A stretch of DNA of 39,620 nt from a virus: positions 1 through 39,620 of IMG/VR virus record IMGVR_UViG_3300036909_000234; one strand, written 5' to 3'. The notes beneath the pieces are model-generated. The model searched no databases. It had not been told where the DNA came from and saw only the letters and a program-made list of their open reading frames with translations. Positions 8,885 to 39,082 of the stretch are shown piece after piece. The translations under genes and the position numbers were made by a program. Numbering within the stretch: position 1 is the stretch's first letter; every line of letters starts with the position of its first letter.

Positions 8885-8927
8885 CAGTTACCTGCTCTCT
8901 ATAAGAGACTGTTGTAGTTCTCAATAC

Positions 8928-9314: not shown

Positions 9315-9316
9315 CC

Positions 9317-10657: not shown

Positions 10658-10721
10658 ACTTCTCTCTACGTGCGAACTCACAGGAAAGGTTACGATTTCC
10701 ACACTCTAACTAGAGGGTTCA

Positions 10722-12923: not shown

Positions 12924-12932
12924 CTGTTCCTT

Positions 12933-13070: not shown

Positions 13071-13468
13071 CCGATCGCCAAGCAACACACCTGCTTGAAC
13101 TCATCAGGAGATTCAATCTGTTCCACGGCTGGATCGACGAGAGTGTTTTCTGGGATGATCTCGGGATAGGTGGCCTTGTACCACCAGGTCATTTCTTCAA
13201 CCGCAAGGACACCTTCGGGGAATGCTGAAATCACAGCGAGGTTGTAATACCCCATCTCAAAGATGTCAGTGTGATTTTCGAGCACGGCCTTCTCGGCATC
13301 CTTGAATTTCAGATACCATCCCCAGGTCCGCTTGCGCTTCTGCTTGTCGTGGAGTACTGTTACGAAGAAAATAATTGGGCCGGGAGAGGGCGAACCAATG
13401 TTGATGTTCGCCCCATCTTCAGCCTCCGCCGTTTTGCGAAGCCATTCCTCGCTTGCGTTGAATTCCAT
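13067..13468 (-). CDS. unknown 133-aa protein
   Basis: Starts MEFNASEEWLRKTAEAEDG. A core alpha/beta region (GPIIFFVTVLHDKQKRKRTW) is followed by YYNLAVISAFPEGVLAVEEMTWWYKA and a CC near the C-terminus. The leader is 30 nt and carries CTAGGAGAGG before the ATG. A copy of the two-block promoter motif lies directly upstream (13499-13528). It leads a run with the 45-aa gene, the 184-aa gene, the GGDEF gene and the nucleotidase. Family not recognised. Confidence 0.75.
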   Translation of the reverse strand: MEFNASEEWLRKTAEAEDGANINIGSPSPGPIIFFVTVLHDKQKRKRTWGWYLKFKDAEKAVLENHTDIFEMGYYNLAVISAFPEGVLAVEEMTWWYKATYPEIIPENTLVDPAVEQIESPDEFKQVCCLAIG

Positions 13469-13498
13469 AGTCCTCTCCTAGCAGAACTCTTACGATAG

Positions 13499-13528
13499 TT
13501 CTACCAAGCAGGACTAGAAATCGGTTAA
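13499..13528 (-). promoter_or_regulatory. phage promoter motif copy (TTAACCGATT, then GTAGAA)
   Basis: On the minus strand TTAACCGATT starts at 13528 and GTAGAA at 13504, 24 nt start to start, as in the other copies. It ends 30 nt before the start of the 133-aa gene and overlaps the stop codon of the papain-like gene. The constant spacing is what supports it. Confidence 0.65.
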
Positions 13529-14280
13529 GAGGATACGATTCGCAAATCGGCTTCCAGTTGTGCCAGGTTCAACCCACTTGGAGAACCCTTGCTGGTCAGC
13601 CAGTCAGCACTGAGCAAGCAGTGAGCTTCGTCCACGTATGTCTTCCAGAAGTCCCACGTCATCTTCAGTGTAGCACCCCAGGTGATGCAAGTCAAACCTT
13701 CTTCGTCGTATGCAGCGACGAAGACGCAGTGACCACCCCATGAACCAGGAACTGTGCTGCCGGTGCCATTGTCAGGGACCACAGTCCAGATCGGCTGATT
13801 CTGTGCAGACAAGGGGAGTTGGACACCGATGTATACGCCACCAAACAGCTGGATGGACCTTTTGATTTCTGTGAAGTTCAACACGTTCGGGTCGACATAC
13901 GACTTCAGCGCGACTCCGCCAGCGCCATACTTCTTCCAGAGATTCAGAACACGCAGTTCTTCACCACCCTGATCGGTGGAAGGATCCGCTGGGTTGTACC
14001 CGTCCCACTTTTCGTAGAGGAAGAGGACTCTGGCGTCCGTGATGGTTCTTTCGATGCCAGTGTTGAGACTCCAGACCTGGATGGCATGAGCAACGCCAGC
14101 GATCGTACAGTCTCCAAGGGTGTCATTGAGCATCATGCCAAAGGAGGTCTTCCCCTTGAACCAATCGACAGAGACTGGCGGAGCAGGCAGGTTAGGAGCC
14201 AGATACTTCCCCAAGCGAAGAGTCCGACTGTCAATTTTTGCTGGGTGCTTTCCGAGTTTCATCTTGGCAGTGTATGGCAT
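13525..14280 (-). CDS. papain-like (C1-type) cysteine peptidase
   Basis: 251 residues. The likely nucleophile is in LGDCTIAGVAH (about residues 55-65), with a catalytic His in GSWGGHCVFVAAYDEEG (about 179-195) followed by TWGATLKMTWDFW, the Cys-His order of papain-fold enzymes. No signal peptide is seen, so action in the cytoplasm or in a virion is more likely than export. It starts behind AGGGAGAATCTC. It could process phage proteins or attack a host protein. Loss of activity cannot be ruled out from sequence. Confidence 0.75.
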   Translation of the reverse strand: MPYTAKMKLGKHPAKIDSRTLRLGKYLAPNLPAPPVSVDWFKGKTSFGMMLNDTLGDCTIAGVAHAIQVWSLNTGIERTITDARVLFLYEKWDGYNPADPSTDQGGEELRVLNLWKKYGAGGVALKSYVDPNVLNFTEIKRSIQLFGGVYIGVQLPLSAQNQPIWTVVPDNGTGSTVPGSWGGHCVFVAAYDEEGLTCITWGATLKMTWDFWKTYVDEAHCLLSADWLTSKGSPSGLNLAQLEADLRIVSS

Positions 14281-14319
14281 GAGATTCTCCCTCTAACCTA
14301 GGAATCCCATAGCCGATTT

Positions 14320-15243
14320 TTATGAAGACACATCAGTTGCCGGCGGAATGTGTTTCCTCTGGGGAGATGGAATATTGTCTTTGAATTCGTTGATCAGTTG
14401 TCTCATCCTATCAGGATGACCATTGCTCCAGTAATATCTGCCAGACAGAGAGTCATTGGTTTCTCCTGAAATCTGATTGGCCCAAAGCCGCTTCTTCTGC
14501 TTGGTGTCATCAGCAACCTTGGGGATGAAAACTGGATGCCATAGATGAAACACCGGGCCTGGAAGAGTCTTGTGTGGGCCGAACAAGGTGTCTGCAGCGA
14601 CCATAGCGGCATGATCCTCTCCACCCCATCCTCTGAATCTCGGGTCCCATCCTCCCACCTCTTCAAACCCCTTTCGAGGAATGATCTGAATCATTGCCCC
14701 ATACCAGTGTCCGATGGCTGATATTGGTTCTCCTTCATACTTGTCCTTGTTGGTGTAATCGTTTTCATCTGGGACATGAGCTAGGATCAGCTGCTTCGGA
14801 TCAGTGTTGATGATCTTCCTTGAAGCCTCCTCTGTGAGCCTGAACAGATTGCGATAAGGAACAAACCAGAGACGCCAACCATTCTTGGAGGCGTGACGAA
14901 TCTCTTCAGCACATAGAAGAATTGCTTCTGCTGAGATGCAAGTATCAGCGTCCACAATCGCGAAGATGTCTCCATGAGCCTTGCTCACCGCGTCGTTTAC
15001 TGCTACTGATTTTGAGAACGGAGCACGATGTTGAACCGCATCGATGTCTTCTCCAAGGATGATCTCTGAGCCGGGTAGTGCCTTCCTCCAGTAGCTGTTC
15101 AACCAATGCCAACTATCTGCTCTGTGACCAGTTGGCTCCGATAGGTGCAGAGGGACAAGGATGCTGATCCCATACCCCTTCACCCTCAGTATCCTGAAAA
15201 GGAAGAAGACGAAGATTCTCCACAGATTCTTAAGTTTTTCCAT
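14320..15243 (-). CDS. GT-A family glycosyltransferase
   Basis: 307 residues. The metal/nucleotide-sugar motif is DAD in FAIVDADTC (near 95). The acceptor and catalytic region FEEVGGWDPRFRGWGGED (near 195-212) matches the C-terminal block of galactosyltransferase-like GT2/GT7 enzymes, and VFHLWHP follows. A hydrophobic N-terminal segment (IFVFFLFRIL) could anchor it at the inner face of the membrane. It overlaps the pyruvyl transferase by 14 bp. The pair probably modify a polysaccharide, host or virion (inference). Confidence 0.85.
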   Translation of the reverse strand: MEKLKNLWRIFVFFLFRILRVKGYGISILVPLHLSEPTGHRADSWHWLNSYWRKALPGSEIILGEDIDAVQHRAPFSKSVAVNDAVSKAHGDIFAIVDADTCISAEAILLCAEEIRHASKNGWRLWFVPYRNLFRLTEEASRKIINTDPKQLILAHVPDENDYTNKDKYEGEPISAIGHWYGAMIQIIPRKGFEEVGGWDPRFRGWGGEDHAAMVAADTLFGPHKTLPGPVFHLWHPVFIPKVADDTKQKKRLWANQISGETNDSLSGRYYWSNGHPDRMRQLINEFKDNIPSPQRKHIPPATDVSS

Positions 15244-15985
15244 ATACTCTGCTCAGTTCTCGGAATGCATCGAAGACCTCGAACTTTGCATCGTCTACGC
15301 GATTCCGCTTTGGCTCGATCATTTTCCCAATCTCGAAAGGCGTCTTGATTGAGGCACTATAATCCTGATACTTAAAAAGACCGCCATCTTTTGCCAAGGC
15401 ATCACAGGATTCCACACGCCTGGGGATTCCCCCGATGGCGTCAGCAACAACCATTCCGTGCAGTGAAGAAGTCACTATTCTTCTGCAGGCAGAGATTTCT
15501 CGTATGACGGTTAGTGGATCGTCAAGAGGACTAATGACCTTGCGTGTGAACTGAGAGGGTACGAGTTTTTGGAATCGATCAGCAAGAGTTGAGTCCTGCC
15601 AGTGAGGTAAAATTCCCAAGTCCCAGGTCTTCTTTTGAGGCTCCACGAGCTCATTCGCCAAGAGGGCAGGATCACCCAAAGCAAACTGGCCAGTGAAAGC
15701 TCGAGCCGTCAGAGGACCTCTGAGAGCTAGGACGTGAGCATCTCGTGGATTGAATTTCAGTTTGGATGTTTCTCTCAGAAGACCAGAACCGACGATGAAT
15801 CCCCTCCACCCAGGAGGGATGTGTTCTAGGATAGATCCAACTGAGACTATGTCGGCCTCAGCAATAGGTTTCCATACAATTTTGTTGAGGTCGGAGAATC
15901 TCGCAAGAAGAAGAGGGGATAATACGTCTCCGAAATTCTCTACCCGTCGCCACCAGTAAACACTTTGCACCTTCCCGAACATCAT
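15230..15985 (-). CDS. polysaccharide pyruvyl transferase-like protein
   Basis: 251 residues. Family hallmarks: WWRRVENFGDVLSPLL (11-26), VGSILEHIPPGW, LALRGPLTARAF, ALGDPALLANEL, and SSLHGMVVADAIGGIPRR near the C-terminus. Members transfer pyruvate from phosphoenolpyruvate to sugars as a ketal, adding negative charge to capsule or exopolysaccharide. A phage copy next to a glycosyltransferase suggests remodelling of the host surface. The start is ATG 15985 or the adjacent ATG at 15982, behind AAAGGACC. Confidence 0.85.
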   Translation of the reverse strand: MMFGKVQSVYWWRRVENFGDVLSPLLLARFSDLNKIVWKPIAEADIVSVGSILEHIPPGWRGFIVGSGLLRETSKLKFNPRDAHVLALRGPLTARAFTGQFALGDPALLANELVEPQKKTWDLGILPHWQDSTLADRFQKLVPSQFTRKVISPLDDPLTVIREISACRRIVTSSLHGMVVADAIGGIPRRVESCDALAKDGGLFKYQDYSASIKTPFEIGKMIEPKRNRVDDAKFEVFDAFRELSRVYGKT

Positions 15986-16016
15986 TTTTGTGGTCCTTTG
16001 ATAGAGGAAGAGAGAG

Positions 16017-16259
16017 TCAGTTCATTGGTCCTTTAATACTCTCTACGATCATTTTTCTGAACTGACCCTCTGTAATGGACCATCTGTTCTCGGTGCTGTC
16101 TTTAACAATATCTAGATTTGCCTTCGCCAAGGCATAAACCTGCGACGCAGAGTCGTTTGTGCATCCGACATTGGCAACATGAGTGTAGAAACTACCTTCG
16201 ATTTCATGTCCTATGAGGGAAATGAGGGCACCCCGAGAAATGTCAACTTCTTCTCCCAT
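16017..16259 (-). CDS. small unknown protein
   Basis: 80 residues from ATG 16259 (GGAG just upstream); a TTG nine bases earlier is weaker. Starts MGEEVDISRGALISLIGHE, then a helix (ASQVYALAKANLDIVKDS) and a C-terminal ITEGQFRKMIVESIKGPMN. It overlaps the 55-aa gene by 17 bp. No family recognised. Confidence 0.6.
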   Translation of the reverse strand: MGEEVDISRGALISLIGHEIEGSFYTHVANVGCTNDSASQVYALAKANLDIVKDSTENRWSITEGQFRKMIVESIKGPMN

Positions 16260-16410
16260 CGTCTCCAATTCTCGGAATATCGGTGAGATCCATCTTCACC
16301 GAGAACGGTTGCTTCTCTCTTCGCGCAACTTCGTGCAAATTTGAGAAAAGGACCTCATTCCCGTCACTTTCTGCAACGATGTAGATGCCGTCAAAGTTCC
16401 ATTTGCTCAT
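16243..16410 (-). CDS. small unknown protein, 55 aa
   Basis: Starts at ATG 16410 in an ATGA overlap with the upstream stop (16407-16409) and ends with TGA at 16243-16245. The peptide begins MSKWNFDGIYIVAESDGNE and ends DIPRIGDDGRRS. It fills what would otherwise be a 140-bp gap in a tightly packed run, which supports it. Function unknown. Confidence 0.6.
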   Translation of the reverse strand: MSKWNFDGIYIVAESDGNEVLFSNLHEVARREKQPFSVKMDLTDIPRIGDDGRRS

Positions 16411-16757
16411 TTGAGTTTTCCTTCGTACACGTGGACAGACTCTGGCTGAGTCTCAAAATCGATTGATGGAATTGCCTCTTCAGTCCGGACAGAAGGAGGA
16501 GTTCCCGCACTTGCCTTCTCTACGACGGCACTTGTGGTCTTCTCCATTTCAAGAGTTCCGGAGGCCATCCAGCGAGCGTGAAACTTGCCATTGCAACCGG
16601 CGCTGCACGCATGTTTGACACCAGGATTGTGCATGTTCTCTTCACTCAAGCGAGCAGAATGAAATATACCATCCTCGGTGACCCAGGTCGTCCACCAGTG
16701 ATTCTGTAGCTTTTTGTCTTCGTTACATACATCGCAAGACGGAATTGTCTTTATCAT
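16407..16757 (-). CDS. unknown protein with N-terminal Cys/His zinc site
   Basis: 116 residues. CDVC at 8-11 and HACSAGC near 49-55, with nearby His, form a likely zinc site. The rest is low-complexity (TTSAVVEKASAGTPPSVRTE). Overlaps of 4 bp on both sides couple it to the RNA ligase upstream and the 55-aa gene downstream. Zinc binding is an inference from Cys spacing; the role is unknown. Confidence 0.7.
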   Translation of the reverse strand: MIKTIPSCDVCNEDKKLQNHWWTTWVTEDGIFHSARLSEENMHNPGVKHACSAGCNGKFHARWMASGTLEMEKTTSAVVEKASAGTPPSVRTEEAIPSIDFETQPESVHVYEGKLK

Positions 16758-17395
16758 CTTGTCCTCATTTCGTTTTTGATCACCATCTGGGCCATCCAGT
16801 GATGTCCTGTACCAACATGTTCAGCACGAACATACTTGGCAACTGACTTCCTGAATGCGCCATAGGGAAATGAGTCAGCAAGACGAACCACATAGCCTTC
16901 TTGTCTCTTCATATCGAGCCGTCCTGCGATTCCCAGGACAAGTTCTTCATCCCAGATCCCATCGTACAGGACAGGAACCGTCTCGATGTCTAAGATTCCG
17001 GCATATTCAATCGTTTCATCCCAGTTCAGACAGGTATTCGAGTCATTCCAGATACCAAACAACATGAAGTAGGAAGGCAACTCCCAGTACTTCAAGGTGT
17101 GCTTGGCATACAAGTTCTCACCACAGAATCGCCACCCTTGAGGAATGTTATAGGCGAACTGAGCGTGATAGTTCTTGACCCACTGCCGACTTTCGTGACC
17201 ACCACTGTCTATGCTTCGAGCGTGAATGTAGTCAGAGTACATGGTGGTGTTTTCACCATCCATCTTCTCGGTTACAATCACCCTTCGTCCCTTGAATATA
17301 GATGTGTCTTTCATCACTCGGTCATCAGCCGAAATACCGGGACTCCACGGCAGGTGGGGAGTCCTTGGATATTTGACACGTCGAGTGATGACCAT
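16754..17395 (-). CDS. RNA ligase (nucleotidyltransferase superfamily)
   Basis: 213 residues from ATG 17395; a longer reading from 17506 has an unlike N-terminus and would overlap the GIY-YIG gene. Motif I with the AMP-accepting lysine: VTEKMDGENT, Lys44. Motif III: FCGENLYAKHTLKYWELP; IIIa: FMLFGIW; motif IV: QEGYVVRL with Glu166; motif V: SVAKYVR. The GENLYAKH block is typical of RNA rather than DNA ligases (Rnl2/RNA_ligase family). It would seal nicked or cleaved RNA, for example tRNAs cut by host anticodon nucleases (inference). Confidence 0.88.
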   Translation of the reverse strand: MVITRRVKYPRTPHLPWSPGISADDRVMKDTSIFKGRRVIVTEKMDGENTTMYSDYIHARSIDSGGHESRQWVKNYHAQFAYNIPQGWRFCGENLYAKHTLKYWELPSYFMLFGIWNDSNTCLNWDETIEYAGILDIETVPVLYDGIWDEELVLGIAGRLDMKRQEGYVVRLADSFPYGAFRKSVAKYVRAEHVGTGHHWMAQMVIKNEMRTR

Positions 17396-17427
17396 GCTTC
17401 GTTCTACGTTCGGTTCCGTCAAAGGAG

Positions 17428-18162
17428 CTAATGCTTGGGACGGCCTATCCTCGGTTTGGACAGCGGATGAGATTGTTCTTCTCCTTCGTATGTCACATAG
17501 TACCACGTTCCGAGTTGCTTACCGATGGCTCGCTTGAATCTTCTAGCATTTTTGACGTTACCCACACTCATAGTCTTGTTAAGCAAATGTGAGAAATGCT
17601 CAGCCACTTCACGCGCATTTTTGAACTGAGCAACCACCTGACGATTCTCGTCCAGGATTAGCCAAGAATGAATGCTCTGTACCTCGGATATTCTAGCTCG
17701 AAAACCGGCTGACGATCTAGATCTCTTCAGTTTGTCAGAGTTTCGAAGGCCTGTACTGATGTTATGACACCATTCATCAGAAAACTGTGGATGCTTTCCC
17801 CAACTTGGATTCTTCTCTCCTTGCTTGGAAGCTGAAATCACTGCCTTCACTTCATCGGTGTAAGTGTACCCAGCTGTCCCTCCGGTGGCCGCATTGGTGA
17901 GGTTTGAAAGATGGAGTATCCAAAATCTTTCCTTCTCGTCCAGTTCCTCATTTGGCACACTATCAAGAACAACTACAGTCACCGGAGTTTCTTTTGTGTG
18001 AACTTTCCGTATCCAGTACTCCTTGTGAGTGTAGCGAGGTAGATCGTAGAAAGAACTCCTGATGTGATCTTGAAGACGATCTACTGCCGTCTCGGAGATG
18101 GTTTGACCCACATAACGAATTTCTCCCGTCAACGGACACACCAACCCATATATGATACCCAA
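17428..18162 (-). CDS. GIY-YIG homing endonuclease with NUMOD-type DNA-binding tail
   Basis: 244 residues. GIY-YIG signature: GIIYG (2-6) and YVGQT (17-21); likely catalytic Arg29 and Glu78 (EKERFW). The C-terminal DNA-binding part holds a NUMOD3-like GEKNPSWGK (115-123) and a NUMOD1-like helix region (LILDENRQVVAQFKNAREVAEHF spans it). It starts with TTG at 18162; AGGAGG is 8 nt upstream but inside a hairpin (18161-18198). It is a free-standing intruder between the RNA ligase and a Cys-rich gene, and AT-richer than both. Confidence 0.9.
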   Translation of the reverse strand: MGIIYGLVCPLTGEIRYVGQTISETAVDRLQDHIRSSFYDLPRYTHKEYWIRKVHTKETPVTVVVLDSVPNEELDEKERFWILHLSNLTNAATGGTAGYTYTDEVKAVISASKQGEKNPSWGKHPQFSDEWCHNISTGLRNSDKLKRSRSSAGFRARISEVQSIHSWLILDENRQVVAQFKNAREVAEHFSHLLNKTMSVGNVKNARRFKRAIGKQLGTWYYVTYEGEEQSHPLSKPRIGRPKH

Positions 18163-19199: not shown

Positions 19200-19229
19200 C
19201 TCTACCATCATGCAGCTAGGATCGGGTAC
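19200..19229 (-). promoter_or_regulatory. phage promoter motif copy (GTACCCGATC, then GTAGAG)
   Basis: The minus strand reads GTACCCGATC starting at 19229 and GTAGAG starting at 19205, exactly 24 nt apart, in the short gap between the polyvalent gene and the 137-aa gene. The block ends 6 nt before ATG 19193, the same distance as at the DNA ligase gene. Confidence 0.65.
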
Positions 19230-23666: not shown

Positions 23667-23869
23667 TGTATGAGGATTGTGAGCAGTGTTTTCTGGAGTG
23701 AATTCATGACCAGCTGGGGGTTGAAGATGTTTCTTCGGCCAGCTTCGAAGGTCTTCACTCTGACAACTACAGTCCCCACTCCTCCACAAGCAGTGCAAGG
23801 TTTGCTTATCTTTTCAGGCTCTTGCCTTGTGGTATATCCACATCGTTCACAAAAGCAGTTGACCTTCAT
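23648..23869 (-). CDS. small zinc-ribbon-like protein
   Basis: 73 residues. CFCERC (5-10) and CTACGG (25-30) form two Cys pairs spaced like a zinc ribbon. The C-terminal stretch (SLQKTLLTILIQWLASA) is hydrophobic and helical. ATGA overlap with the upstream gene. Function unknown. Confidence 0.55.
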   Translation of the reverse strand: MKVNCFCERCGYTTRQEPEKISKPCTACGGVGTVVVRVKTFEAGRRNIFNPQLVMNSLQKTLLTILIQWLASA

Positions 23870-24210
23870 TTCTTCTTTTGGAATCCGGGAACTTCTCCAG
23901 CAGCAATCCGGGCCTTCATGGAGGCCTTGCTGGAGATGGACCGCCGCCGCTTGGTGAGAGCATCACGCTGGGAAGCGATGAGACCGGAGACCTTGGGAGG
24001 CAAAGCGAGACGAACAACTCCGTTCTCGTCCAAGCACTCGATGAAGATATAGTCGCCATCCTCATGCCGGCAGGTCTGAATGACAAAAGTCTCAGTCTTG
24101 CCGGTAAGGGATTGAACAGTCTTCACCGTGCTGGGTTTCACGAACAGCGAAACATCCATCAGGCTGCCGTAGAGCCGATCATACTTGCTGATTGTCGTAG
24201 TTTCTTCCAT
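23866..24210 (-). CDS. unknown 114-aa basic protein
   Basis: Starts MEETTTISKYDRLYGSLMDV. Beta-rich centre (ETFVIQTCRHEDGDYIFIECLDENGVV begins it), then a very basic C-terminus (ALTKRRRSISSKASMKARI, ending PGFQKKK) that could contact nucleic acid. It overlaps the upstream gene end by 32 bp, a little more than usual here. No family recognised. Confidence 0.7.
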   Translation of the reverse strand: MEETTTISKYDRLYGSLMDVSLFVKPSTVKTVQSLTGKTETFVIQTCRHEDGDYIFIECLDENGVVRLALPPKVSGLIASQRDALTKRRRSISSKASMKARIAAGEVPGFQKKK

Positions 24211-24394
24211 GGATAGGCTGCTTTCTTGGTGACCACCACTTCGGCCCCAGGTTGCTTACTTCGAGGTTGGGCTGGCACCTTCCTACATGTGGAGGAAAAC
24301 CGCAGCCGCAGAATTTCTTTGGCACAATCCGCTTGACTTCTTTGGCCATGATAGGATCGGCAACACCATCATAATTTCCCCAGGGAAAACTCAT
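24179..24394 (-). CDS. small Cys-containing unknown protein
   Basis: 71 residues. FCGCGFPPHVGRC gives three Cys and one His in 12 residues, a likely metal knuckle. Starts MSFPWGNYDGVADPIMAKEV. A 32-bp overlap with the next gene lowers certainty about the true end or start of one of them. Confidence 0.55.
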   Translation of the reverse strand: MSFPWGNYDGVADPIMAKEVKRIVPKKFCGCGFPPHVGRCQPNLEVSNLGPKWWSPRKQPIHGRNYDNQQV

Positions 24395-24409
24395 TCTTCT
24401 TCTCTCCTT

Positions 24410-24616
24410 CTATCTTTGTAAGTGGGTTTCAACACCATACGGACTCTTCTTGAAGTCCAATGTCTTTTGAGTTGGGTTGGGTCCCAGCGTCGACTTCTGT
24501 GCACGCTCCCAACGAGCCGTGTCACCATGTGGGTCAAGCCATCCCCGACGAAGGAAGAGCCAGTCTTGCAAGGAATAGTCAGCGGGATAGTGATACAGTG
24601 TGATTTCGGTTTCCAT
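24410..24616 (-). CDS. small unknown protein
   Basis: 68 residues from ATG 24616, which shares one base with the upstream TAA (TAATG). Starts METEITLYHYPADYSLQDWL, followed by FLRRGWLDPHGDTARWERAQ. The longer in-frame reading from 24808 lies under the winged-helix gene and is rejected. Function unknown. Confidence 0.6.
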   Translation of the reverse strand: METEITLYHYPADYSLQDWLFLRRGWLDPHGDTARWERAQKSTLGPNPTQKTLDFKKSPYGVETHLQR

Positions 24617-25008
24617 TATCCAGTTATCTCCTTGATCTCTTCTTCGGTTAGTTCCCAGCGGAACTTGTGGCTGGTGAGGTCTACCATTCTCTTTGTCATC
24701 TTGGCGCCATAGAATGGGAAGTTCTTGAATGCATAGCGCCAGAAGTCTGCAGGTGTGTACATGTCCCGGTTGGCGAGGAGGTTGATACCCTCCTGCGTAA
24801 CCTGCCATCTGGCAGTGAACTCCGGACCGGCCTTCTCGATCAGTCCCTCACGACGAACATAGGTAAGAGTCGAGTTGGAGAGCAGCGTTGGGAAGTTGGC
24901 CATGATGTCCCTGTACCGGGCACCGTTCTGGCTGTGAAGGTAGTGGAGAATCCCGTGAACGAGAGTCCCCGACTTGTACTTGTTGCGAAGGAAAACCGGG
25001 AGAGACAT
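24616..25008 (-). CDS. winged-helix-like protein
   Basis: 130 residues from ATG 25008, preceded by GGAAGGTGAC; a longer reading from 25107 has no such site. The middle part (YRDIMANFPTLLSNSTLTYV, then RREGLIEKAGPEF, TARWQVTQEGINLL) follows the helix-turn-helix plus wing pattern of small wHTH proteins such as the PadR/MarR-like group. It may act as a phage transcription regulator (inference). The C-terminus is rich in aromatic residues. Confidence 0.6.
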   Translation of the reverse strand: MSLPVFLRNKYKSGTLVHGILHYLHSQNGARYRDIMANFPTLLSNSTLTYVRREGLIEKAGPEFTARWQVTQEGINLLANRDMYTPADFWRYAFKNFPFYGAKMTKRMVDLTSHKFRWELTEEEIKEITG

Positions 25009-25009
25009 G

Positions 25010-25387
25010 TCACCTTCCGATCTGGGCCGCCACAGCGAGGTTGCGCATGACGAGGACACGGAGGACGACTTCGGCATTGAGACGACGGAGCTCTTCGAAC
25101 ACAGCACGCTCAGCTTCGGAAGTACCCTCTGCTAGAGACTTGTTGTACATGACATCAGCAGGAGCCGTACCTCTCCAATCAGCCGCGCCCATGTTGGCAA
25201 TGCCGTAGGTGGGCATCCTATCCAGGGAGTTCTGAGCGTTGCGAAGATGCTGACCATAGTCCCGCAGCAGATCGCTGTTGACTGCTTGATCTTCCATGCC
25301 TGATGCGACTTCTGGAACCTTGAGGCAACCGTTCTTGTCGAATTCAACTATCAGGTTTGTCTCGAGCATACTCAATGGAATTTTCAC
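25010..25387 (-). CDS. unknown 125-aa protein
   Basis: Starts MKIPLSMLETNLIVEFDKNG. Mostly helical afterwards (SDLLRDYGQHLRNAQNSLDR; SEAERAVFEELRRLNAEVVL). Ends 1 bp past the winged-helix start, so likely co-translated. Family unknown. Confidence 0.7.
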   Translation of the reverse strand: MKIPLSMLETNLIVEFDKNGCLKVPEVASGMEDQAVNSDLLRDYGQHLRNAQNSLDRMPTYGIANMGAADWRGTAPADVMYNKSLAEGTSEAERAVFEELRRLNAEVVLRVLVMRNLAVAAQIGR

Positions 25388-25388
25388 A

Positions 25389-25715
25389 TTATCCTTTCAA
25401 TCGAACATTGACATCGTTGCGGTTGATGTTGAGAATGTGAGGCGACCGCAATCTCAGTTCTGCCTCTGTATCCGGATGCATGTCAAGATGAGTGGGACTG
25501 ATGCCCACGAAGATGGTGTCGAGTTCGCCATGACCATGAGTGACGACAGGAATGCGATCCTCTTGGATGACGATGGTGTGAACGAACCCTGCTCCACGTC
25601 CCGGCGCTGCGGTCAAAGACTTCTCTGCCGCCTCCAGAAGTTGCTGGGCCATTCTCTTGGCTTCTTGGGGTGTCATGTTCAGGAAGTTTCCTGCTGAGTT
25701 CTGGAGCAGTTTCAT
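25389..25715 (-). CDS. unknown 108-aa protein
   Basis: Helical N-terminus (MTPQEAKRMAQQLLEAAEKS), then a beta-rich part with several His (GFVHTIVIQEDRIPVVTHGH; PTHLDMHPDTEAELRLRSPH). The His cluster could bind metal, but no family is recognised. A 4-bp overlap with the 141-aa gene upstream and a 1-bp gap to the next. Confidence 0.7.
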   Translation of the reverse strand: MKLLQNSAGNFLNMTPQEAKRMAQQLLEAAEKSLTAAPGRGAGFVHTIVIQEDRIPVVTHGHGELDTIFVGISPTHLDMHPDTEAELRLRSPHILNINRNDVNVRLKG

Positions 25716-26137
25716 GACCGGCTCCTTTGACCAGTGATCACATTCACCAGTGGAACACCAGGGCCAAAGGCAGCGCGACGTTCGTAACGCTCTTCAGCAG
25801 ATGTACGACGAGGCTGGCGATAGGCTGCAAGAAAGTCATTTGTCTGCATATCGCGAATCACAGAAGTTTTGGTTTGATCGAATTCAGGAATCTTGTTGAT
25901 GAAGTTCTCCTCGATGAAGTCCTGAGGAATAACCCGTCGGTTGGTGAGCCAGGTAGGCACGCCACACACCATATCAAATAGGTGAGTCTGAGTACGATTG
26001 TTCTGTGGATGAGTAGGAATGACCGTCGCCACAGTGAGAGTATAGACTACAATCGTCTCAGTGGGATCAGAACTCTCTATGGTAACAGTGATTTCCTGAG
26101 TACCATATTTTGAATAGGTGGTCTCAAAAACTCTCAT
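25712..26137 (-). CDS. unknown 141-aa protein, first gene of the leftward run
   Basis: Start at ATG 26137 behind GGAGGG (the GTG at 26149 would put the binding site inside the gene). A beta-rich N-terminus (MRVFETTYSKYGTQEITVTI) is followed by a region with several Arg (RQPRRTSAEERYERR). It is driven by the leftward promoter motif at 26154-26183. Function unknown. Confidence 0.7.
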   Translation of the reverse strand: MRVFETTYSKYGTQEITVTIESSDPTETIVVYTLTVATVIPTHPQNNRTQTHLFDMVCGVPTWLTNRRVIPQDFIEENFINKIPEFDQTKTSVIRDMQTNDFLAAYRQPRRTSAEERYERRAAFGPGVPLVNVITGQRSRS

Positions 26138-26153
26138 GCTTCCCTCCACCTCA

Positions 26154-26183
26154 CTCTACTGAGATGGACCCAGGATCGGTTAA
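26154..26183 (-). promoter_or_regulatory. leftward phage promoter motif (TTAACCGATC, then GTAGAG)
   Basis: On the minus strand TTAACCGATC starts at 26183 and GTAGAG at 26159, 24 nt start to start. It ends 16 nt before the start of the 141-aa gene and shares the divergent region with a rightward copy at 26212-26241. Confidence 0.75.
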
Positions 26184-26211
26184 GATAGATACCGCTGTAT
26201 TCTTGTGGTAA

Positions 26212-26241
26212 TTACCCGTTCTAAGGCAGGTTTCCGTAGAG
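26212..26241 (+). promoter_or_regulatory. rightward phage promoter motif (TTACCCGTTC, then GTAGAG)
   Basis: The first block starts at 26212 and the second at 26236, 24 nt apart. It is followed by TATAAAGAA and then the ATG of the Wzz fragment at 26266. It faces away from the leftward copy, so this 130-bp gap is the switch point between the two arms. Confidence 0.75.
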
Positions 26242-26265
26242 TCTCACTATAAAGAACTGACTTTA

Positions 26266-26559
26266 ATGGATCTGTTTGCCATTTTCCATCGGCGCAGGAA
26301 AATCCTAATTGTAACCCTTTTTGGGTTCATCGCTCTCGGTGCGCTTTATTGCGTGTTTTCGACAAGGCGATACGAAGCCAAAGGCACCATTCAGGTTCAA
26401 AAAGAATCGGCTGATGCCATGGGTTTGGATAACCTGATGAACGGAGCCGAAGGTGCGCCGGACGCCTTGGACGCCAACATCAACCTGCAGACGCAGGTGA
26501 ACATTGGAGAACATCCGCCAAGACATCGACGCTCCACGCTGTCACTGTTGTGGTGCTAG
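26266..26559 (+). pseudogene. truncated Wzz/chain-length-determinant N-terminus
   Basis: 97 residues. Residues 1-80 read as the start of a bacterial polysaccharide co-polymerase: a short basic cytoplasmic lead (HRRRK), one membrane helix (ILIVTLFGFIALGALYCVF), then the periplasmic start (TRRYEAKGTIQVQKESADAM, and later DANINLQTQVNI). Where family members continue with ILQSD-like sequence, the match stops near 26505 and the frame runs out in GEHPPRHRRSTLSLLWC. It is a captured host fragment fused to phage DNA behind a phage promoter. It may still make a membrane peptide able to disturb host Wzz assemblies (inference). An assembly chimera is the main alternative. Confidence 0.7.
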
Positions 26560-26808: not shown

Positions 26809-26838
26809 TTACCCGATCCTTGATCCCCAGCAGTAGAG
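26809..26838 (+). promoter_or_regulatory. phage promoter motif before rIIA-like (TTACCCGATC, then GTAGAG)
   Basis: Blocks at 26809 and 26833, 24 nt start to start. The ATG of the rIIA-like gene follows 18 nt after the second block, with a good ribosome binding site between (GGAGGG). Confidence 0.75.
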
Positions 26839-26856: not shown

Positions 26857-29244
26857 ATGATTATCGAACACAAGGGAACCAAGACAGTGTCCGGTGGAGC
26901 AGTTGGAGTAGCCTCCGACTTTGCGATCAACAACACTGCTATGGCTTTCAAGATTCTGTCCAGCAAGCTCTACACTGACAAGATCTTGGCCCCAATTCGC
27001 GAACTGGCCTGCAATGCGTACGATGCGCATGTAGCTGCCGGCACTCCGGCACTGCCTTTCGAAATCAATCTGCCCACATCCTTTGACCCCATGTTCCGCA
27101 TCAAGGACAGCGGCATCGGCCTGGATGACGAAGGCATCAAGACGCTGTACTGCCGCTATTTCAGCAGCAACAAGTCAGCTTCCAACGAGTTTGTCGGAGC
27201 GATGGGCCTGGGTTCCAAGAGCCCATTTGCCTACACCGAAGGATTCACGGTCATTTCGATCTTCAACAAGACCAAGCGCACTTACGATGCTCACCTTAGC
27301 GAAGAAGGCATTCCGGAAGTTCTGATGCTCTCCGAAGAGACGACCACTGACCATAATGGTCTTGAGGTCAGCTTCCCGGTGCCGCCTCATGATTTCTATG
27401 AGTTCCAGAACAAGGCGCGCATCGCGACTGAGTTCATCGAGCCTCGTCCGATCGTCAACATCAAGCACTTCACCTTCACGGACACCGAGTATGTCATGAA
27501 GACTGACCTGTGGGGCATCCGCAAGGAGCCGAAGACTCACCAGACCAATGGCGTCCGCGCGATTCAGGGCATGGTGGCCTATGCGGTTGGTACCATCGAC
27601 GACAGCAAGACGAGCGATGCTCAGAAGCGCATCATGCAGATGCCGGTCGACCTGTTCTTTCAGATTGGCGACCTGGATGTCGCGGCCTCTCGTGAGACCC
27701 TAGACAACACCAAGCGCACCGTGGCCAACGTCCTGTCACTGGTCGACGAGGTTTATGCCGGCCTGGTGGATGAGCTCAAGGCAAAGTTGAACACCGCGCA
27801 GTCCGCGTGGGAAGCTCGCCTCATGCTCCGCCAGATGCACGATTCACCGCTCAAGGAAGTGGTCAAGGCGGCGGAGAAGGCTGGCGACATCTGGGGCATC
27901 TACGACAACTTCACGCTGGCAAAGAACAAGCCCACCATCAATGAGATGGATTACGAGCATCTCACGATCGCTCGCTTCCAGCAGATGAAGCGTCGCGACA
28001 AGTACGCCAAGTACGCCAAGTATGCGACCAAGAACTTCCTCTTCAAGCAGAAGGGGAGCCAGGTCTACCAGACCGCCGTTCAGAGTATCTCATCTGGTCT
28101 ACAGACTCGCGACATCCTCGACGTTCCTTTTGAAGTTTCTCCGGACATGCTCTTTGTCCTGAACGACATCAAGGGTGGTGGCGAGAAGTATGTCCACTAT
28201 TTGCTCCAGCAGGATCCGGATGTCACCAACAACTATCCTGGCATCGTGGAAGTCTACATGCTGACCACCGGCTCTTCCAAGGACGATCAGGCCGCGATGA
28301 TCACTGACGCGGCTGCGCTTGTCAAGGAAATCGGCAGCCCGAAGGTCATCTCGATGTCCGCTCTCAAGGCTTTGTATGGCCCGTTTGTGGATATCCCGAA
28401 GCCGAAGTATAGCACTGGCTTGCCTCGTGAGCGCAAGAGCGTTCTCTCGCTCAAGTTCAAGGGAAAGTACAGTTCATTCCGTGGAGGCGACACTTACAGC
28501 TTCTACACCAATTGGGTGCGTGCTCAGGAGTCGGAGTTTGGAGCGGTCAACTATTACTTCATCCTGACCGACAACCAGAAGCCGACTTGGGGAAACACCG
28601 GCGATAACACCAATGGTATGTGGTCGACCTGCGAGACGATGGTTGGGTTCTTGAAGAAGGTTCGCGACTGCGGTTTCTACGGTCTGACACCTTCCACTCC
28701 GGTATTCGGTCTCAAGGCCAACAGCAAATTGATTGGTCAGCCGGACTGGGTCAACCTGGGCCAGCACATTGAGGCTCACACGAAGGTCCTGATGAGCGAT
28801 GTCAAACAGCACGAGATGTCTCTCTTCCTGGGTGGCAATCAGGCTAGCAATCAGGACATGTGGCTCAAGGTTTCCAGCCGCAAGCTGATTCCGCTGTGCT
28901 CACCGGCTCGCAAGTTCGCCGACGACTATGCGGTTGTGGTTCGTGGATACGAGGACGAGAAGAACAAGATCCTGATCGACATTCTTTGCTTCCTCATGCA
29001 GCACAATCTCTGGAAGACGACGATCAAGCTGCCGAATTTTGAGAAGCTGGAAAAGGAACTTCACACCATCTATCCTCTTCTCGCTTTCATCCCGGATACC
29101 CGTTGGGAGGAAACTCGTGGTAGAGTACTCCAGAGGGCAGTTGACTACGTCGCTTTGATTGACGAGACCAACGAAGCCAAAGACAACATCTACATCACGT
29201 TCGAAACATTCGAAGAGGAGAATGAGCATGTCAGCATCAGCTAG
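26857..29244 (+). CDS. rIIA: rIIA-like GHKL ATPase
   Basis: 795 residues. ATP-binding motifs of the GHKL fold: N-box IRELACNAYDAH (about 48-59), G1 motif FRIKDSGIGLDDEG (about 85-98), and the glycine lid GAMGLGSKSPFAYTEGF (about 114-130). Length and the following rIIB-like gene match T4 rIIA (725 residues). In T4 the pair acts at the membrane and protects against exclusion by lambda rex. It is expressed from its own promoter copy and overlaps the rIIB-like start by 23 bp. Confidence 0.92.
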   Translation: MIIEHKGTKTVSGGAVGVASDFAINNTAMAFKILSSKLYTDKILAPIRELACNAYDAHVAAGTPALPFEINLPTSFDPMFRIKDSGIGLDDEGIKTLYCRYFSSNKSASNEFVGAMGLGSKSPFAYTEGFTVISIFNKTKRTYDAHLSEEGIPEVLMLSEETTTDHNGLEVSFPVPPHDFYEFQNKARIATEFIEPRPIVNIKHFTFTDTEYVMKTDLWGIRKEPKTHQTNGVRAIQGMVAYAVGTIDDSKTSDAQKRIMQMPVDLFFQIGDLDVAASRETLDNTKRTVANVLSLVDEVYAGLVDELKAKLNTAQSAWEARLMLRQMHDSPLKEVVKAAEKAGDIWGIYDNFTLAKNKPTINEMDYEHLTIARFQQMKRRDKYAKYAKYATKNFLFKQKGSQVYQTAVQSISSGLQTRDILDVPFEVSPDMLFVLNDIKGGGEKYVHYLLQQDPDVTNNYPGIVEVYMLTTGSSKDDQAAMITDAAALVKEIGSPKVISMSALKALYGPFVDIPKPKYSTGLPRERKSVLSLKFKGKYSSFRGGDTYSFYTNWVRAQESEFGAVNYYFILTDNQKPTWGNTGDNTNGMWSTCETMVGFLKKVRDCGFYGLTPSTPVFGLKANSKLIGQPDWVNLGQHIEAHTKVLMSDVKQHEMSLFLGGNQASNQDMWLKVSSRKLIPLCSPARKFADDYAVVVRGYEDEKNKILIDILCFLMQHNLWKTTIKLPNFEKLEKELHTIYPLLAFIPDTRWEETRGRVLQRAVDYVALIDETNEAKDNIYITFETFEEENEHVSIS

Positions 29245-31062: not shown

Positions 31063-31092
31063 TTACCCGTTCTGACACTCACATCAGTAGAG
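31063..31092 (+). promoter_or_regulatory. phage promoter motif before ku (TTACCCGTTC, then GTAGAG)
   Basis: Blocks at 31063 and 31087, 24 nt apart, directly after the stop of the 64-aa gene. The second block ends 24 nt before the Ku ATG, the same distance as at the Wzz fragment. AAGGGAG is the ribosome binding site. Confidence 0.75.
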
Positions 31093-31116: not shown

Positions 31117-32076
31117 ATGGCTAAGAAAAACGAGACCGCTGTAATCGCGAACGATAGCAAAGAAGCCCAGATCGCCGCACTCACCGCGCAGCTTGCCGGT
31201 GGCGCTGCTGCTACTTCCGCTCCGGTCGCGTCCGGCGACTTCGCCAAGAAGGCTGCCAACCGTGCGACCAACAATCTGATGGTCAGCATGGGATTGCTCA
31301 GCTTCCCAATCAAGGTCTACAAGGCGACCGAGGTTGACACGGTCAGCTTCAACAACCTTCACACCACCTGCCACCACGCTCTCAAGCAGCAGGATTACTA
31401 CTGCCCCGAGTGCTCCACTCCCGAAAAGGTTGCCGTGGTCGCAAAGGACCAGATCGTCAAGGGATACGAGTACGAGAAAGGCAAGTTCGCCATCTTCACT
31501 CCGGAAGAGATCGCTGGTTGCAAGGTTGCCGCCGACGATAGCCTGGAGATCATCAAGTTCGTCGACGAAAGCACGATCGACCCAATCTTCTACGAGTCGT
31601 CCTACTTCGTCGGACCGGACAAGGGTGCGGAAATGCAGTTCGCCCTGCTTCGCGCTGGCATGACCAAGACCGGCAAGGTTGCAATCGGCAAGGTTGCTCT
31701 CAAGGGTCGCGAGCAGACCGTGGTCATTCGCCCCTATGGCGATCGTGGCCTCATCCTGAACTACCTCTACTTCGACTACGAAGTTCGCTCCTTCGCCGGA
31801 TGGGACAAGGTCCCGAACGCGGACGCACTCAGCGAGAAGTTCATGGCCGTCGCCACTCAGCTGGTCGACATGATGACCGAAGACTTCGCTCCCGAGACCA
31901 TGAGCGATTCGTACCTGGTCAACGCTCGCAAACTGATCAGCGCCAAGGCTGCCGGCCTGACCGCTCCCGTCATTGTCAAGGCTGCTGCCAAGGATGCCTC
32001 TGCGGATCTGGAAGCTGCTCTTGAGGCTTCACTGAACGCTGCCAAGATCAAGAAGGCTTCCAAGAAGGCGGCATAA
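31117..32076 (+). CDS. ku: Ku-family DNA end-binding protein
   Basis: 319 residues. The Ku core begins near residue 52: NLMVSMGLLSFPIKVYKATE, VSFNNLHTTC, YYCPECSTPE, and IVKGYEYEKGKFAIFTPEEI, the standard order of bacterial Ku. Cys85, Cys96 and Cys99 could bind zinc. An N-terminal extension of about 50 residues is unusual. The C-terminus is Lys/Ala-rich (KIKKASKKAA), as in bacterial Ku tails that contact DNA. Bacterial Ku forms a homodimer ring on DNA ends and recruits a ligase. A phage ligase gene lies 5.5 kb downstream under the same promoter class. Confidence 0.9.
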   Translation: MAKKNETAVIANDSKEAQIAALTAQLAGGAAATSAPVASGDFAKKAANRATNNLMVSMGLLSFPIKVYKATEVDTVSFNNLHTTCHHALKQQDYYCPECSTPEKVAVVAKDQIVKGYEYEKGKFAIFTPEEIAGCKVAADDSLEIIKFVDESTIDPIFYESSYFVGPDKGAEMQFALLRAGMTKTGKVAIGKVALKGREQTVVIRPYGDRGLILNYLYFDYEVRSFAGWDKVPNADALSEKFMAVATQLVDMMTEDFAPETMSDSYLVNARKLISAKAAGLTAPVIVKAAAKDASADLEAALEASLNAAKIKKASKKAA

Positions 32077-34297: not shown

Positions 34298-34594
34298 ATG
34301 AAGATGACTTGCTTGATGCACCGTGTGGTCTGTGGGTTCGGGTCGATGTGGGCCACCGACAAGATCTGTGTGGATTGTGGTCGGAGATTTGTCATGGGCC
34401 CATGGAATGCCATCATTCTTCCTGACACTCGCAAGAATGTTGTACTTGCCAACTATGCGGAGGGCATGCGCAAGAGACAGTTCCGTGGCGAGAAAGCAAC
34501 GACGTTAGAGGATATGTACAAGTTGTTTGATGTGCAGATGCCTACTGATCCCTGTGAAGCCTTGATGCCAGACTTGAAGCATCCAGGAGAATAA
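34298..34594 (+). CDS. zinc-ribbon-like unknown protein
   Basis: 98 residues from ATG 34298 (in-frame GTG at 34286 also possible). MTCLMHRVVCGFGSM and DKICVDCGRRF give Cys/His pairs like a zinc ribbon. A later helical segment (LANYAEGMRKRQFRGEKATT) is basic. Function unknown. Confidence 0.6.
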   Translation: MKMTCLMHRVVCGFGSMWATDKICVDCGRRFVMGPWNAIILPDTRKNVVLANYAEGMRKRQFRGEKATTLEDMYKLFDVQMPTDPCEALMPDLKHPGE

Positions 34595-34626
34595 CTGGAT
34601 CTGTCGTAACTGCCGTAGAGGAGTGT

Positions 34627-35471: not shown

Positions 35472-35684
35472 ATGTACGACGTTTATGAAGAAAACCGTTT
35501 CCTCCGCAAACGGGTGTTCCAACTCCAGCTTCAACTGGATGAGGAGGAGCGCAAGCGCAATGAAACCCTCGATCTGTTGATCAAGGGCGAGTCGATGCGT
35601 AGTCGGATGATGCTGAATGCAATCCTCGACGGTTGCATTCCCAACTGTGGCGATAGATTGTCACTTCCCGTTTCTTCAGAGTAA
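35472..35684 (+). CDS. small coiled-coil protein
   Basis: 70 residues from ATG 35472 (AGGAGACGAG upstream). One long charged helix (EENRFLRKRVFQLQLQLDEE, ERKRNETLDLLIKGE), then MRSRMMLNAILDGCIPNCGD. It follows RlpA by 8 bp; a spanin-like or lysis accessory role cannot be shown because there is no signal or lipobox. Confidence 0.6.
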   Translation: MYDVYEENRFLRKRVFQLQLQLDEEERKRNETLDLLIKGESMRSRMMLNAILDGCIPNCGDRLSLPVSSE

Positions 35685-35716
35685 CTGATATCTCATCCCA
35701 GAACGTAGAGTGAGCC

Positions 35717-36960: not shown

Positions 36961-37567
36961 AGAAAGCGATCCACTAGGTGTCGGAAAATATGATGAATTC
37001 ACAGGTGGAGTCGTCAGCGATCTAGACGTCGTCCTTGATCCCTCCCTCGTGGAGCCGATCGAAACCAAGACTCTGTCGGAGAGACTTGAGATCGAACTGA
37101 ACAAGCAGGAAGTCAAGGGAGAAGAGGTCATCCGTCAGCCCAAGAAGTGGCCGGTTGCAACTGATGAACAGCGAGACACTGCACATGAGCATGACCCTGC
37201 TCAGTTCGGCCATGTGGAAGAGGGGGAAGACGAGAGCAGCATCGATTTGGACAACTTGTTCAAATCTATTGCTCCGATTGCATCGTTTCCTCGAGAGGAA
37301 CTGCTCCTCGACGCTCTCAAGGGAGTTCTGGACCTCCACAACAACATTGTCAGGGCGACTGTTATGTTCCTCGAGGATGACAAGCCTCATGGAGCCTGGA
37401 AGCATCTGAATCAGTCCAAAGGCGCGATGGAGTGCCAAGTGGTGGACGTCATCCGCGTGTTGTTCAACCACGACAAGGCCACCAGTCTGATTCTGGCTCT
37501 CGACATTGAAGAGCCTTCTGCGGAACAGGTCGTGGCTGAAGTACTGGAAGCACACGATGTAAATTAG
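36950..37567 (+). CDS. unknown 205-aa acidic protein
   Basis: Starts MKNEESDPLGVGKYDEFTGG. The first 110 residues are acidic and probably disordered (HVEEGEDESSIDLDNLFKSI); the C-terminal 90 are helical (ELLLDALKGVLDLHNNIVRA; GAMECQVVDVIRVLFNHDKA). It directly precedes the ligase promoter. No family recognised. Confidence 0.7.
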   Translation: MKNEESDPLGVGKYDEFTGGVVSDLDVVLDPSLVEPIETKTLSERLEIELNKQEVKGEEVIRQPKKWPVATDEQRDTAHEHDPAQFGHVEEGEDESSIDLDNLFKSIAPIASFPREELLLDALKGVLDLHNNIVRATVMFLEDDKPHGAWKHLNQSKGAMECQVVDVIRVLFNHDKATSLILALDIEEPSAEQVVAEVLEAHDVN

Positions 37568-37593
37568 CCGATTTGGCTCATTCTTCGGTAGAA
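37564..37593 (+). promoter_or_regulatory. phage promoter motif before the DNA ligase (TTAGCCGATT, then GTAGAA)
   Basis: Blocks at 37564 and 37588, 24 nt start to start. The ligase ATG (37600) follows just 6 nt after the second block, too close for a usual leader with a ribosome binding site. Confidence 0.65.
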
Positions 37594-37599: not shown

Positions 37600-38415
37600 A
37601 TGAGCCAGATCCGCCTAATGCCAGAGTTGCTTCAAGAAGAGCCGATCTCCTCTATTCAGAAGTACATCAAGGACAGCCGGTATGGCTTCCAAGAGAAGTA
37701 CAACGGCAAACGTCGTGTAATCATCCGCGACGGTGGCTATGTCTATTGCTTGAATAAAGAGAGCGAAGTTCGCGACCTCCCCAGAAGTTTGGCCGCCAAG
37801 CTCCTCAGTCATCCTCTTGACAGATTTGTCCTCGACTGCGAACTCATGCAGGACGAAAGCCTCAAGGTGTTTGATGCGCTCATCCTGGGCAAACACCTGC
37901 TGGGCGGCGAAGAGTACACCACTCGCCTGGACATGATCCGCACGGCATTCGGCAAGTTTGCTTACATCGAAGTTGCTTCGCTTGTAGTCACCGAAAGCGA
38001 GAAGAGGCAATTCGCGCAGCGTCTCGAAGGCGAGAATGCTGAGGGCATCGTAGTTCGCCGCCTGGATGCGACTTACAAGCAGGGTGATTCTCGTCAACAT
38101 TTTAAGATAAAATTTTGGAAGACAGTTGATACTGTTGTTATCTCATTCGAACGTACTGATGCAGCAGGTCATCCTACCAGTGTAAATATCGGATGCTACG
38201 ACAAGAAAGGTCAGCTTCAACGCATTTCAGGTGCCTCTCTGATAGGCAAAGATCCGAGCATTCGTCCTGGATCGGTTTTGGAAGTGAAATTTCTATACTC
38301 TACACCCACTGGTCACATAGTTCAACCGGCTATCTTGGGAGTCCGCGATGATAAGAGTCCGGCTTCCTGTACGATGGATAAAGTTCTCAAATACCGCAAC
38401 AAAAACTGGAAGTAA
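37600..38415 (+). CDS. ATP-dependent DNA ligase
   Basis: 271 residues: adenylation domain plus a small C-terminal OB-like part. Motif I EKYNGKR with nucleophile Lys33 (Asn for the usual Asp of KxDG); motif III near FVLDCEL (77-82); motif IIIa VFDALIL; motif IV EGIVVRR (148-154); motif V FKIKFWK (168-174). It resembles the ligase domain of LigD and other compact phage ligases. With Ku it could form an end-joining pair; nick sealing in replication is an alternative role. From about 38100 the DNA turns AT-richer, next to the GIY-YIG gene. Confidence 0.87.
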   Translation: MSQIRLMPELLQEEPISSIQKYIKDSRYGFQEKYNGKRRVIIRDGGYVYCLNKESEVRDLPRSLAAKLLSHPLDRFVLDCELMQDESLKVFDALILGKHLLGGEEYTTRLDMIRTAFGKFAYIEVASLVVTESEKRQFAQRLEGENAEGIVVRRLDATYKQGDSRQHFKIKFWKTVDTVVISFERTDAAGHPTSVNIGCYDKKGQLQRISGASLIGKDPSIRPGSVLEVKFLYSTPTGHIVQPAILGVRDDKSPASCTMDKVLKYRNKNWK

Positions 38416-38458: not shown

Positions 38459-39082
38459 ATGCTTATCTATGTCGTCACCAATTCCATAAATGACAAAGTT
38501 TACGTTGGACAACATCGTGGCAATAGAGCAGAACATAGATTAAAGCGACATCTATACGAAGCAGCCCATGGTAGTCAAACTCACTTTCATCGAGCCATAA
38601 GGAAGTATGGAGCTTCCAATTTCCGGATACAAGTTCTCTGTAACGATGTTGGATCTTTGAAGGAATTAGACAATCTGGAACGTATCTGGATAATTCTACT
38701 TGATTCTAGAAATACAGGGTACAACCTGGCTCGAGGTGGATCATTTGAAAATCATGTGGGAGCCAAGGGTTACAAGCACACGGAAATCACTCGTAACCAG
38801 ATAAGTGTGGCCACTAAAGGAAGACAACCCTCTATTCCCAAAGGTAGTACCCGGTCTGAAGATTTCAAGAAGAAAATGAGGAAACCGAAATCGAAAGAAC
38901 ACAAGGAGGCTATGAAAGGCCCCAAATCTGCGTCTCACAGAGAGGCTATCAGAGCATCCAAACAGGTCATTTCAGAAGAAACTAGATACCGGCTTCGAAA
39001 ATCGGCTATCGCTAGAGGAATTCGTCAAAGATTAGCCAAAACCGAGCATCTAGCTGTAGAGAACAGTGAGGATACTCCATGA
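38459..39082 (+). CDS. GIY-YIG homing endonuclease
   Basis: 207 residues. LIYVVTNSINDKVYVGQH (2-19) is the GIY-YIG signature; the likely catalytic Glu is in LERIWI, and GYNLARGGS follows. The C-terminus repeats basic NUMOD3-like segments (HTEITRNQISVATKGRQPS; EDFKKKMRKPKSKEHKEAM; SASHREAIRASKQ). It overlaps the next gene by 4 bp, which is unusual for a recent intruder. AT-rich. Confidence 0.88.
   Translation: MLIYVVTNSINDKVYVGQHRGNRAEHRLKRHLYEAAHGSQTHFHRAIRKYGASNFRIQVLCNDVGSLKELDNLERIWIILLDSRNTGYNLARGGSFENHVGAKGYKHTEITRNQISVATKGRQPSIPKGSTRSEDFKKKMRKPKSKEHKEAMKGPKSASHREAIRASKQVISEETRYRLRKSAIARGIRQRLAKTEHLAVENSEDTP

Follow-up and report, generated by a model that had tools for sequence, protein, structure and literature searches.

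The Locus and the Question

At 26.15-26.24 kb of a 39,620-nt stretch of viral DNA (IMG/VR record IMGVR_UViG_3300036909_000234, positions 1 to 39,620; the whole stretch is called the window below), where gene orientation flips, two copies of a motif made of two short sequence blocks face away from each other, which raises the question of whether this motif is a promoter and, if so, what reads it. A sequence-only reading of the window had listed seven such sites and attributed them to a phage-specific promoter class of rigid spacing, unlike a standard -35/-10 pair, that would be served by a modified host polymerase, a phage sigma-like factor or an alternative host sigma.

All seven listed sites are present. 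The window contains six exact matches to TTANCCGWTY-N14-GTAGAR, where none would be expected, and the remaining listed site, 19200-, carries one mismatch to the pattern (GTACCCGATC); the claimed spacing of 24 nt from block start to block start and the orientation toward a downstream gene hold for every one of them. A matrix scan of the window added five further sites (10664-, 17402-, 34591+, 35681+ and 39032+; Table 1). Matrix matches at 13996+, 29096+ and 32931+ are followed by no ORF start and probably arose by chance or are cryptic; the one at 29096+ is doubtful as a working promoter.

Table 1. Putative promoter sites of the two-block class in the window (distances in nt past the GTAGAR block; SD, Shine-Dalgarno; new, absent from the earlier list)
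Site	Strand	Type	Blocks	Start codon	Gene	Support
26212..26241	+	putative promoter	TTACCCGTTC-N14-GTAGAG	ATG 26266 at 24 nt	ORF 26266-26559, chimeric	exact pattern; matrix 26.6 bits
26154..26183	-	putative promoter	TTAACCGATC-N14-GTAGAG	GGAGG, then ATG 26137 at 16 nt		exact pattern; matrix
26809..26838	+	putative promoter		ATG 26857 at 18 nt; SD begins 6 nt past GTAGAG	rIIA (PHROG 612, E 3e-104)	exact pattern; matrix
31063..31092	+	putative promoter		ATG 31117 at 24 nt, with SD	Ku (PF02735, E 3e-42)	exact pattern; matrix
37564..37593	+	leaderless-type		ATG 37600 at 6 nt	ATP-dependent DNA ligase (PF01068)	exact pattern; matrix
13499..13528	-	putative promoter		ATG 13468 at 30 nt, with SD		exact pattern; matrix
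19200..19229	-	leaderless-type		ATG 19193 at 6 nt		one mismatch; matrix
10664..10693	-	leaderless-type		ATG 10657 at 6 nt	tRNA nucleotidyltransferase (CCA-adding enzyme; PHROG 2244, E 3e-78)	20.5 bits; new
17402..17431	-	weak, leaderless-type		ATG 17395 at 6 nt	213-aa ORF	11.9 bits; new
34591..34620	+	leaderless-type		ATG 34627 at 6 nt	163-aa ORF	18.4 bits; new
35681..35710	+	leaderless-type		ATG 35717 at 6 nt	80-aa ORF	20.9 bits; new
39032..39061	+	putative promoter	TTAGCCAAAA-N14-GTAGAG	ATG 39079 at 17 nt		14.4 bits; new
29096..29125	+	weak match		no ORF start within 40 nt	within rIIA, ~100 nt upstream of rIIB start	17.2 bits

Distribution Along the Phage Genome

Two further IMG/VR records overlap the window at ~99% identity: G2 (187,058 bases), which overlaps window positions 1-17717 in reversed orientation, and G1 (143,574 bases), which overlaps it from 18666 on, save for a variable stretch. 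We infer from these overlaps that the three records, no one of which spans the whole, belong to a single species of jumbo phage with a genome of ~330 kb or more. A megablast search of phage records with 10 kb of the window's sequence gave no match; the nearest isolate is the Tunturiibacter jumbo phage Tunturi_5 (PP885688.1, 308,711 bp), whose host belongs to the Acidobacteriota (PMC11924767) and which shares ~95 orthologues with the window's phage, among them those for terminase, polymerase and capsid (major head protein, 77% over 145 aa).

Scanning G1 and G2 with a matrix built from the sites, at a cut-off of at least 14 bits, returned 64 sites, against 0.7 expected in shuffled sequence and one to three in the reversed sequence. 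When genes were called with a purpose-written gene caller, 50 of these 64 sites proved to be intergenic despite the DNA being 83% coding, so that the enrichment before genes expected of promoters is found across the ~330 kb. The spacing is equally strict: with the blocks searched independently, 33 of 35 pairs lie 23 nt apart, from the start of TAMCCGWT to that of GTAGAR (24 nt when the leading T is counted), and with TAMCC alone as the first block there are 46 pairs at 23 nt and at most two at any other distance. When spaced 4-mers were sought de novo in the DNA upstream of genes, the TAMCCGWTY/GTAGAR motif likewise came first. What is found is thus a phage-private bipartite consensus with fixed spacing before phage genes, one feature of phage-sigma-dependent promoter classes of the phage 7-11 type. 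Genome-wide placement, single spacing and the phasing of start codons described below establish, from the DNA itself, a promoter-like class of fixed geometry, and they lend strong support to the phage-specific class that had been proposed.

Pattern matches in nine other IMG/VR contigs (L010, L011, L013, L015-L019, L022) were rejected as chance, having neither a phased ATG nor sibling sites. A search of the window's phage after masking found no second strongly stereotyped class. A weaker signal, AGTATTR, is seen in G1 and G2 (L028-L045), with 34 of its 64 copies intergenic and an ATG often 7 nt past it; it is possibly a second promoter class resembling the class II sequence GGGTATTA of Tunturi_5.

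The divergent pair itself, 26154- and 26212+, is real, but its arrangement is not fixed: both sites lie in a 2.8-kb segment (window 23687-26504) that is missing from the ~99% identical sibling record G1, where 513 bp (L028, 5347-5859) stand in its place, and the divergent arrangement is therefore a strain feature. At the right end of the segment, ORF 26266-26505 resembles, by eye, the N-terminus of a bacterial polysaccharide chain-length protein, which is joined to phage DNA at 26505; this junction represents either gene capture or chimeric assembly. A search of genome contigs for the Wzz-like peptide gave a single distant match and indicated no host.

Predicted Transcription Start and Leaderless mRNAs

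The position of start codons relative to the motif is informative about where transcription would begin. An ATG lies exactly 6 nt past GTAGAR in 24 of the 64 sites and 7 nt past it in another five, where about one per position would be expected; each of the 24 ATGs at offset 6 opens an ORF (48-488 aa), and offset 5 in the phased-ATG sites is nearly always a pyrimidine. Of 20 Shine-Dalgarno sequences at leadered sites, 18 begin no earlier than offset 6. Together, the ATG phasing and the Shine-Dalgarno positions strongly suggest that +1 would lie about 7-8 nt past GTAGAR and that many of the mRNAs would be leaderless: at nearly half of the sites, +1 would coincide with the A of the start codon or fall within 1 nt of it, and elsewhere a Shine-Dalgarno sequence would follow +1. 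Within the window, the leaderless type comprises the CCA-adding enzyme, the DNA ligase and four other ORFs, and the leadered type rIIA, Ku and others.

With +1 placed at the phased ATG, TAMCCG would occupy positions -35 to -30 and GTAGAR -12 to -7, with 17 nt between them. The statement that the motif is not a standard -35/-10 pair thus stands for the sequences, which are non-standard, but not for the geometry, which is that of a -35/-10 pair. The -35 block extends over 9-10 positions, longer than a hexamer, and GTAGAR is itself a strongly conserved block.

Genes Preceded by the Promoter Class

Sites precede rIIA, Ku, DNA ligase, the CCA enzyme, tRNA clusters (177-614 nt upstream of them) and small ORFs. 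A site within 150 nt was found for 0 of 32 orthologues of Tunturi_5 structural genes vs 49 of 351 other genes (Fisher p 0.02), which marks the class as non-structural; by timing, it would probably be early or middle.

Several other features of the phage deserve mention. The genome carries 37 tRNA genes in clusters (L033, L038, L039, L043, L045), several with the promoter motif upstream. Two sites in G2, 151024+ and 151211+ (L043 11024 and 11211), are 190 nt apart with neither an ORF nor an Rfam family between them, and the interval is a possible small RNA of a new kind. Ku (31117-32076) and the ATP-dependent DNA ligase (37600-38415) each have their own promoter of the class, and the two proteins possibly form an end-joining pair. 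On the minus strand of the window, at 2812-6942, a large SNF2-type helicase ORF is broken by LAGLIDADG intein-like domains. Proteins of G1 and G2 also include the thymine-hypermodification set (5-hmdU DNA kinase, amino acid:DNA transferase and alpha-glutamyl/putrescinyl thymine pyrophosphorylase) and a PurZ-like adenylosuccinate synthetase, so that the phage DNA is probably modified, which might affect the reading of promoters.

A Candidate Sigma Factor

PF04542 (Sigma70_r2, ECF sigma) has no match in the window or the ~330 kb, no Pfam sigma was found among the scanned G1/G2 proteins of at least 80 aa, and sigma signatures sought by regular expression were not found either; a PF08281 match at G1 119605 was rejected as a sigma, being by eye an HNH-type homing endonuclease. 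In the deposited Tunturi_5 record, gp3 is annotated as an RNA polymerase sigma factor, and the window's phage encodes its orthologue (L030:16564-18012:-, 482 aa; 38% identity over the shared core, E 1e-55), the gene lying in both phages between terminase and primase/polymerase. Gp3-like proteins match none of the Pfam and PHROG sigma profiles. AlphaFold models show helices at 28-130 and a helix-turn-helix domain at 170-233 (pLDDT 61, rising to 72 with a deeper alignment of ten relatives), and sigma factors account for nearly all of their best matches by fold in PDB and BFVD, with region 2 and region 4 in order; these matches are weak (best E 0.008 in PDB, with a low TM-score, and 0.003 in BFVD) and stay below significance for the pLDDT-72 model as well. 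As modeled, the gp3-like protein is likely to be a divergent sigma factor with regions 2 and 4.

The mechanism that we consider probable is that TAMCCGWTY and GTAGAR are the -35 and -10 elements of a phage-specific promoter class, used ~60 times, to which the gp3-like sigma would direct the host core RNA polymerase; the fixed span of its two domains, region 2 and region 4, would account for the single spacing, and the class would serve non-structural (early or middle) genes and tRNA clusters. The gp3-like gene itself has no promoter of the class. If the sigma is made during infection, the very first genes would not be readable by it. An extension that we hold to be a long shot has the gp3-like sigma, encoded beside the terminase, produced late and loaded into virions for injection, so that from the first minute host polymerase would be turned to a phage-private early set of genes, largely leaderless; were this true, sigma and promoters would drift together across a whole group of soil jumbo phages, each of which would have an insulated code.

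Promoters of Related Phages

Related phages offer a view of how sigma and promoter may change together. The set compared consists of eleven gp3-like proteins of viral contigs together with that of Tunturi_5, and of promoters where enough sequence exists; these relatives have a promoter class each of their own. The TAMCCG/GTAGAR motif was not found in Tunturi_5, whose class I promoters carry TCATCTTT as -35 and GTAGGTTG as -10, separated by N15, which again span 23 nt and are followed by ATGs of the leaderless type (9 nt past GTAG). Tunturi_5 has 36 class I sites, whereas Tunturi_1, 3 and 4, which infect its host genus but are unrelated to it, stay at the control level of 0-2; this speaks against recognition of class I by a host sigma. 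Tunturi_5 resembles the window's phage in belonging to the same jumbo phage group and in having a gp3-type candidate sigma in the same gene order; it differs in its box sequences, in a second class (class II, GATAWTC...TGGGTATTAG) and in its ECF-type sigma gp211, which with one G020 protein gives the only PF04542 matches among the relatives compared. Class II (L049-L055) precedes replication genes, structural genes and gp3 itself, and 43 of the 44 exact copies of GGGTATTA in Tunturi_5 are intergenic. The main text of the Tunturi_5 paper mentions neither promoters, transcription and sigma factors nor gp3 (PMC11924767).

When the promoters are aligned on the GTA of their -10 element, the -35 boxes read TAMCCG in the window's phage, TAKCCA in G016, T.G.CR in G020, TGT.CA in G022, TRGRCA in G023 and TCATCT in Tunturi_5 class I; all six start 23 nt before GTA, with T1 and C5 invariant. 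The recognition helix of region 4 changes in parallel, (T/S).(Q/K)EF.. going with TARCC/T.G.CA boxes and EKMFIR with TCATCT; where it reads IDQK.FNRFR (G017, G019/G021), a gp3-like protein is present and there is no T...C box at the 23-nt spacing. This variation in step links gp3 to the promoter class, and, with few phages compared, could also reflect shared descent. G019 (L103-L118) and G021 (L155-L166) have a promoter class of their own, CGTGGTATACTGW.AGTG, composed of an extended -10 and a conserved downstream block, with no -35 box.

Alternative Readings

The same promoters could instead be read by an alternative or the primary host sigma, the phage borrowing the signal of a host regulon. 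The class looks early, when host factors alone are present, and several relatives have near-canonical boxes (TRGRCA / TATACT), so that it may descend from host sigma70-type promoters. Housekeeping sigma70 promoters combine TTGACA and TATAAT and tolerate 16-18 nt between them, whereas TAMCCG and GTAGAR are other sequences held at one rigid spacing; the sequence moreover differs phage by phage, and the absence of the Tunturi_5 class I from three other phages of the same host genus speaks against a shared host factor. We regard a host sigma as an unlikely reader, and find no better prospects for a host sigma70 holoenzyme that would use GTAGAR as a poor -10 box with the help of a phage activator bound at TAMCCGWTY, in the manner of T4 MotA. 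The response-regulator domain and other DNA-binding proteins encoded by the phage, and a -35 block exceeding a hexamer, would suit such an activator, but GTAGAR also departs from TATAAT while being strongly conserved, and both the -35 and the -10 differ among relatives, as a changed sigma predicts.

Recognition of the motif by an RNA polymerase of the phage's own, whether multisubunit or single-subunit, is very unlikely. A -35/-10 layout is, to our knowledge, not that of known phage polymerases; neither beta/beta' homologues of a jumbo-phage multisubunit polymerase nor an Rpb2 domain (PF00562) were found in ~330 kb of a possibly incomplete genome, no called protein contains a D.DGD-type catalytic motif, and no polymerase family is among the families listed in the Pfam scans. 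In favor of this reading, some jumbo phages do encode polymerases of their own (PMC7598289). Hardly credible is a motif that is no promoter at all, acting before genes as a repressor operator or a translation signal: the GTAGAR-N6-ATG spacing does equal that of a Shine-Dalgarno sequence, but other sites have a true Shine-Dalgarno with the ATG 16-30 nt further, some precede tRNA clusters, and the block 17 nt upstream of GTAGAR is always present. Among the three readers originally suggested, the phage sigma-like factor fits best, and a modified polymerase and an alternative host sigma fit less well.

Comparison With Known Systems and Significance

The best experimental precedent for a phage sigma at these sites is Salmonella phage 7-11, whose late promoters, GTAAtg-(16)-aCTA, are read by the sigma SaPh711_gp47 and give transcripts that begin 6-9 bp away from the -10 block (PMC8948821); these promoters had earlier been inferred from sequence (PMC4331800). 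The two systems share a private bipartite consensus of fixed spacing, a divergent phage sigma (here a candidate) with region 4, and use of the host core (here predicted), and the start predicted here from ATG and Shine-Dalgarno phasing, 7-8 nt past GTAGAR, is close to that of 7-11. They differ in that the sequences are unrelated, the consensus here being TAMCCGWTY-N14-GTAGAR, and in that 8 sites before late genes in 7-11 compare with ~60 before non-structural genes and tRNAs; leaderless starts, frequent in the window's phage by ATG phasing, are not mentioned for 7-11 (PMC8948821). Gp36 of phiEco32 is likewise a phage sigma giving a private promoter class, but its promoters consist of a single element (tAATGTAtA) and lack a -35 block (PMC8948821). 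Canonical sigma70 promoters (TTGACA-17-TATAAT) are alike in the positions of the boxes relative to +1, which is predicted for the phage, and in T1 and C5 of the -35 across the phage group; the sequences are otherwise unlike and the phage spacing is invariable. The literature searched, which included only a minority of subscription papers, yielded no account of the TAMCCG/GTAGAR motif or of promoters of the gp3 type.

With this promoter class, a transcription map can be read for a group of jumbo phages of which at least one has its host among the Acidobacteriota, bacteria whose phage biology is almost blank. A prediction that follows is that leaderless mRNAs arise from nearly half of the sites of one promoter class and, since Tunturi_5 is an isolated phage, the prediction is directly testable. 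The group as a whole offers a natural series in which one sigma family is accompanied by at least six matching private promoters, useful for the study of sigma-promoter specificity.
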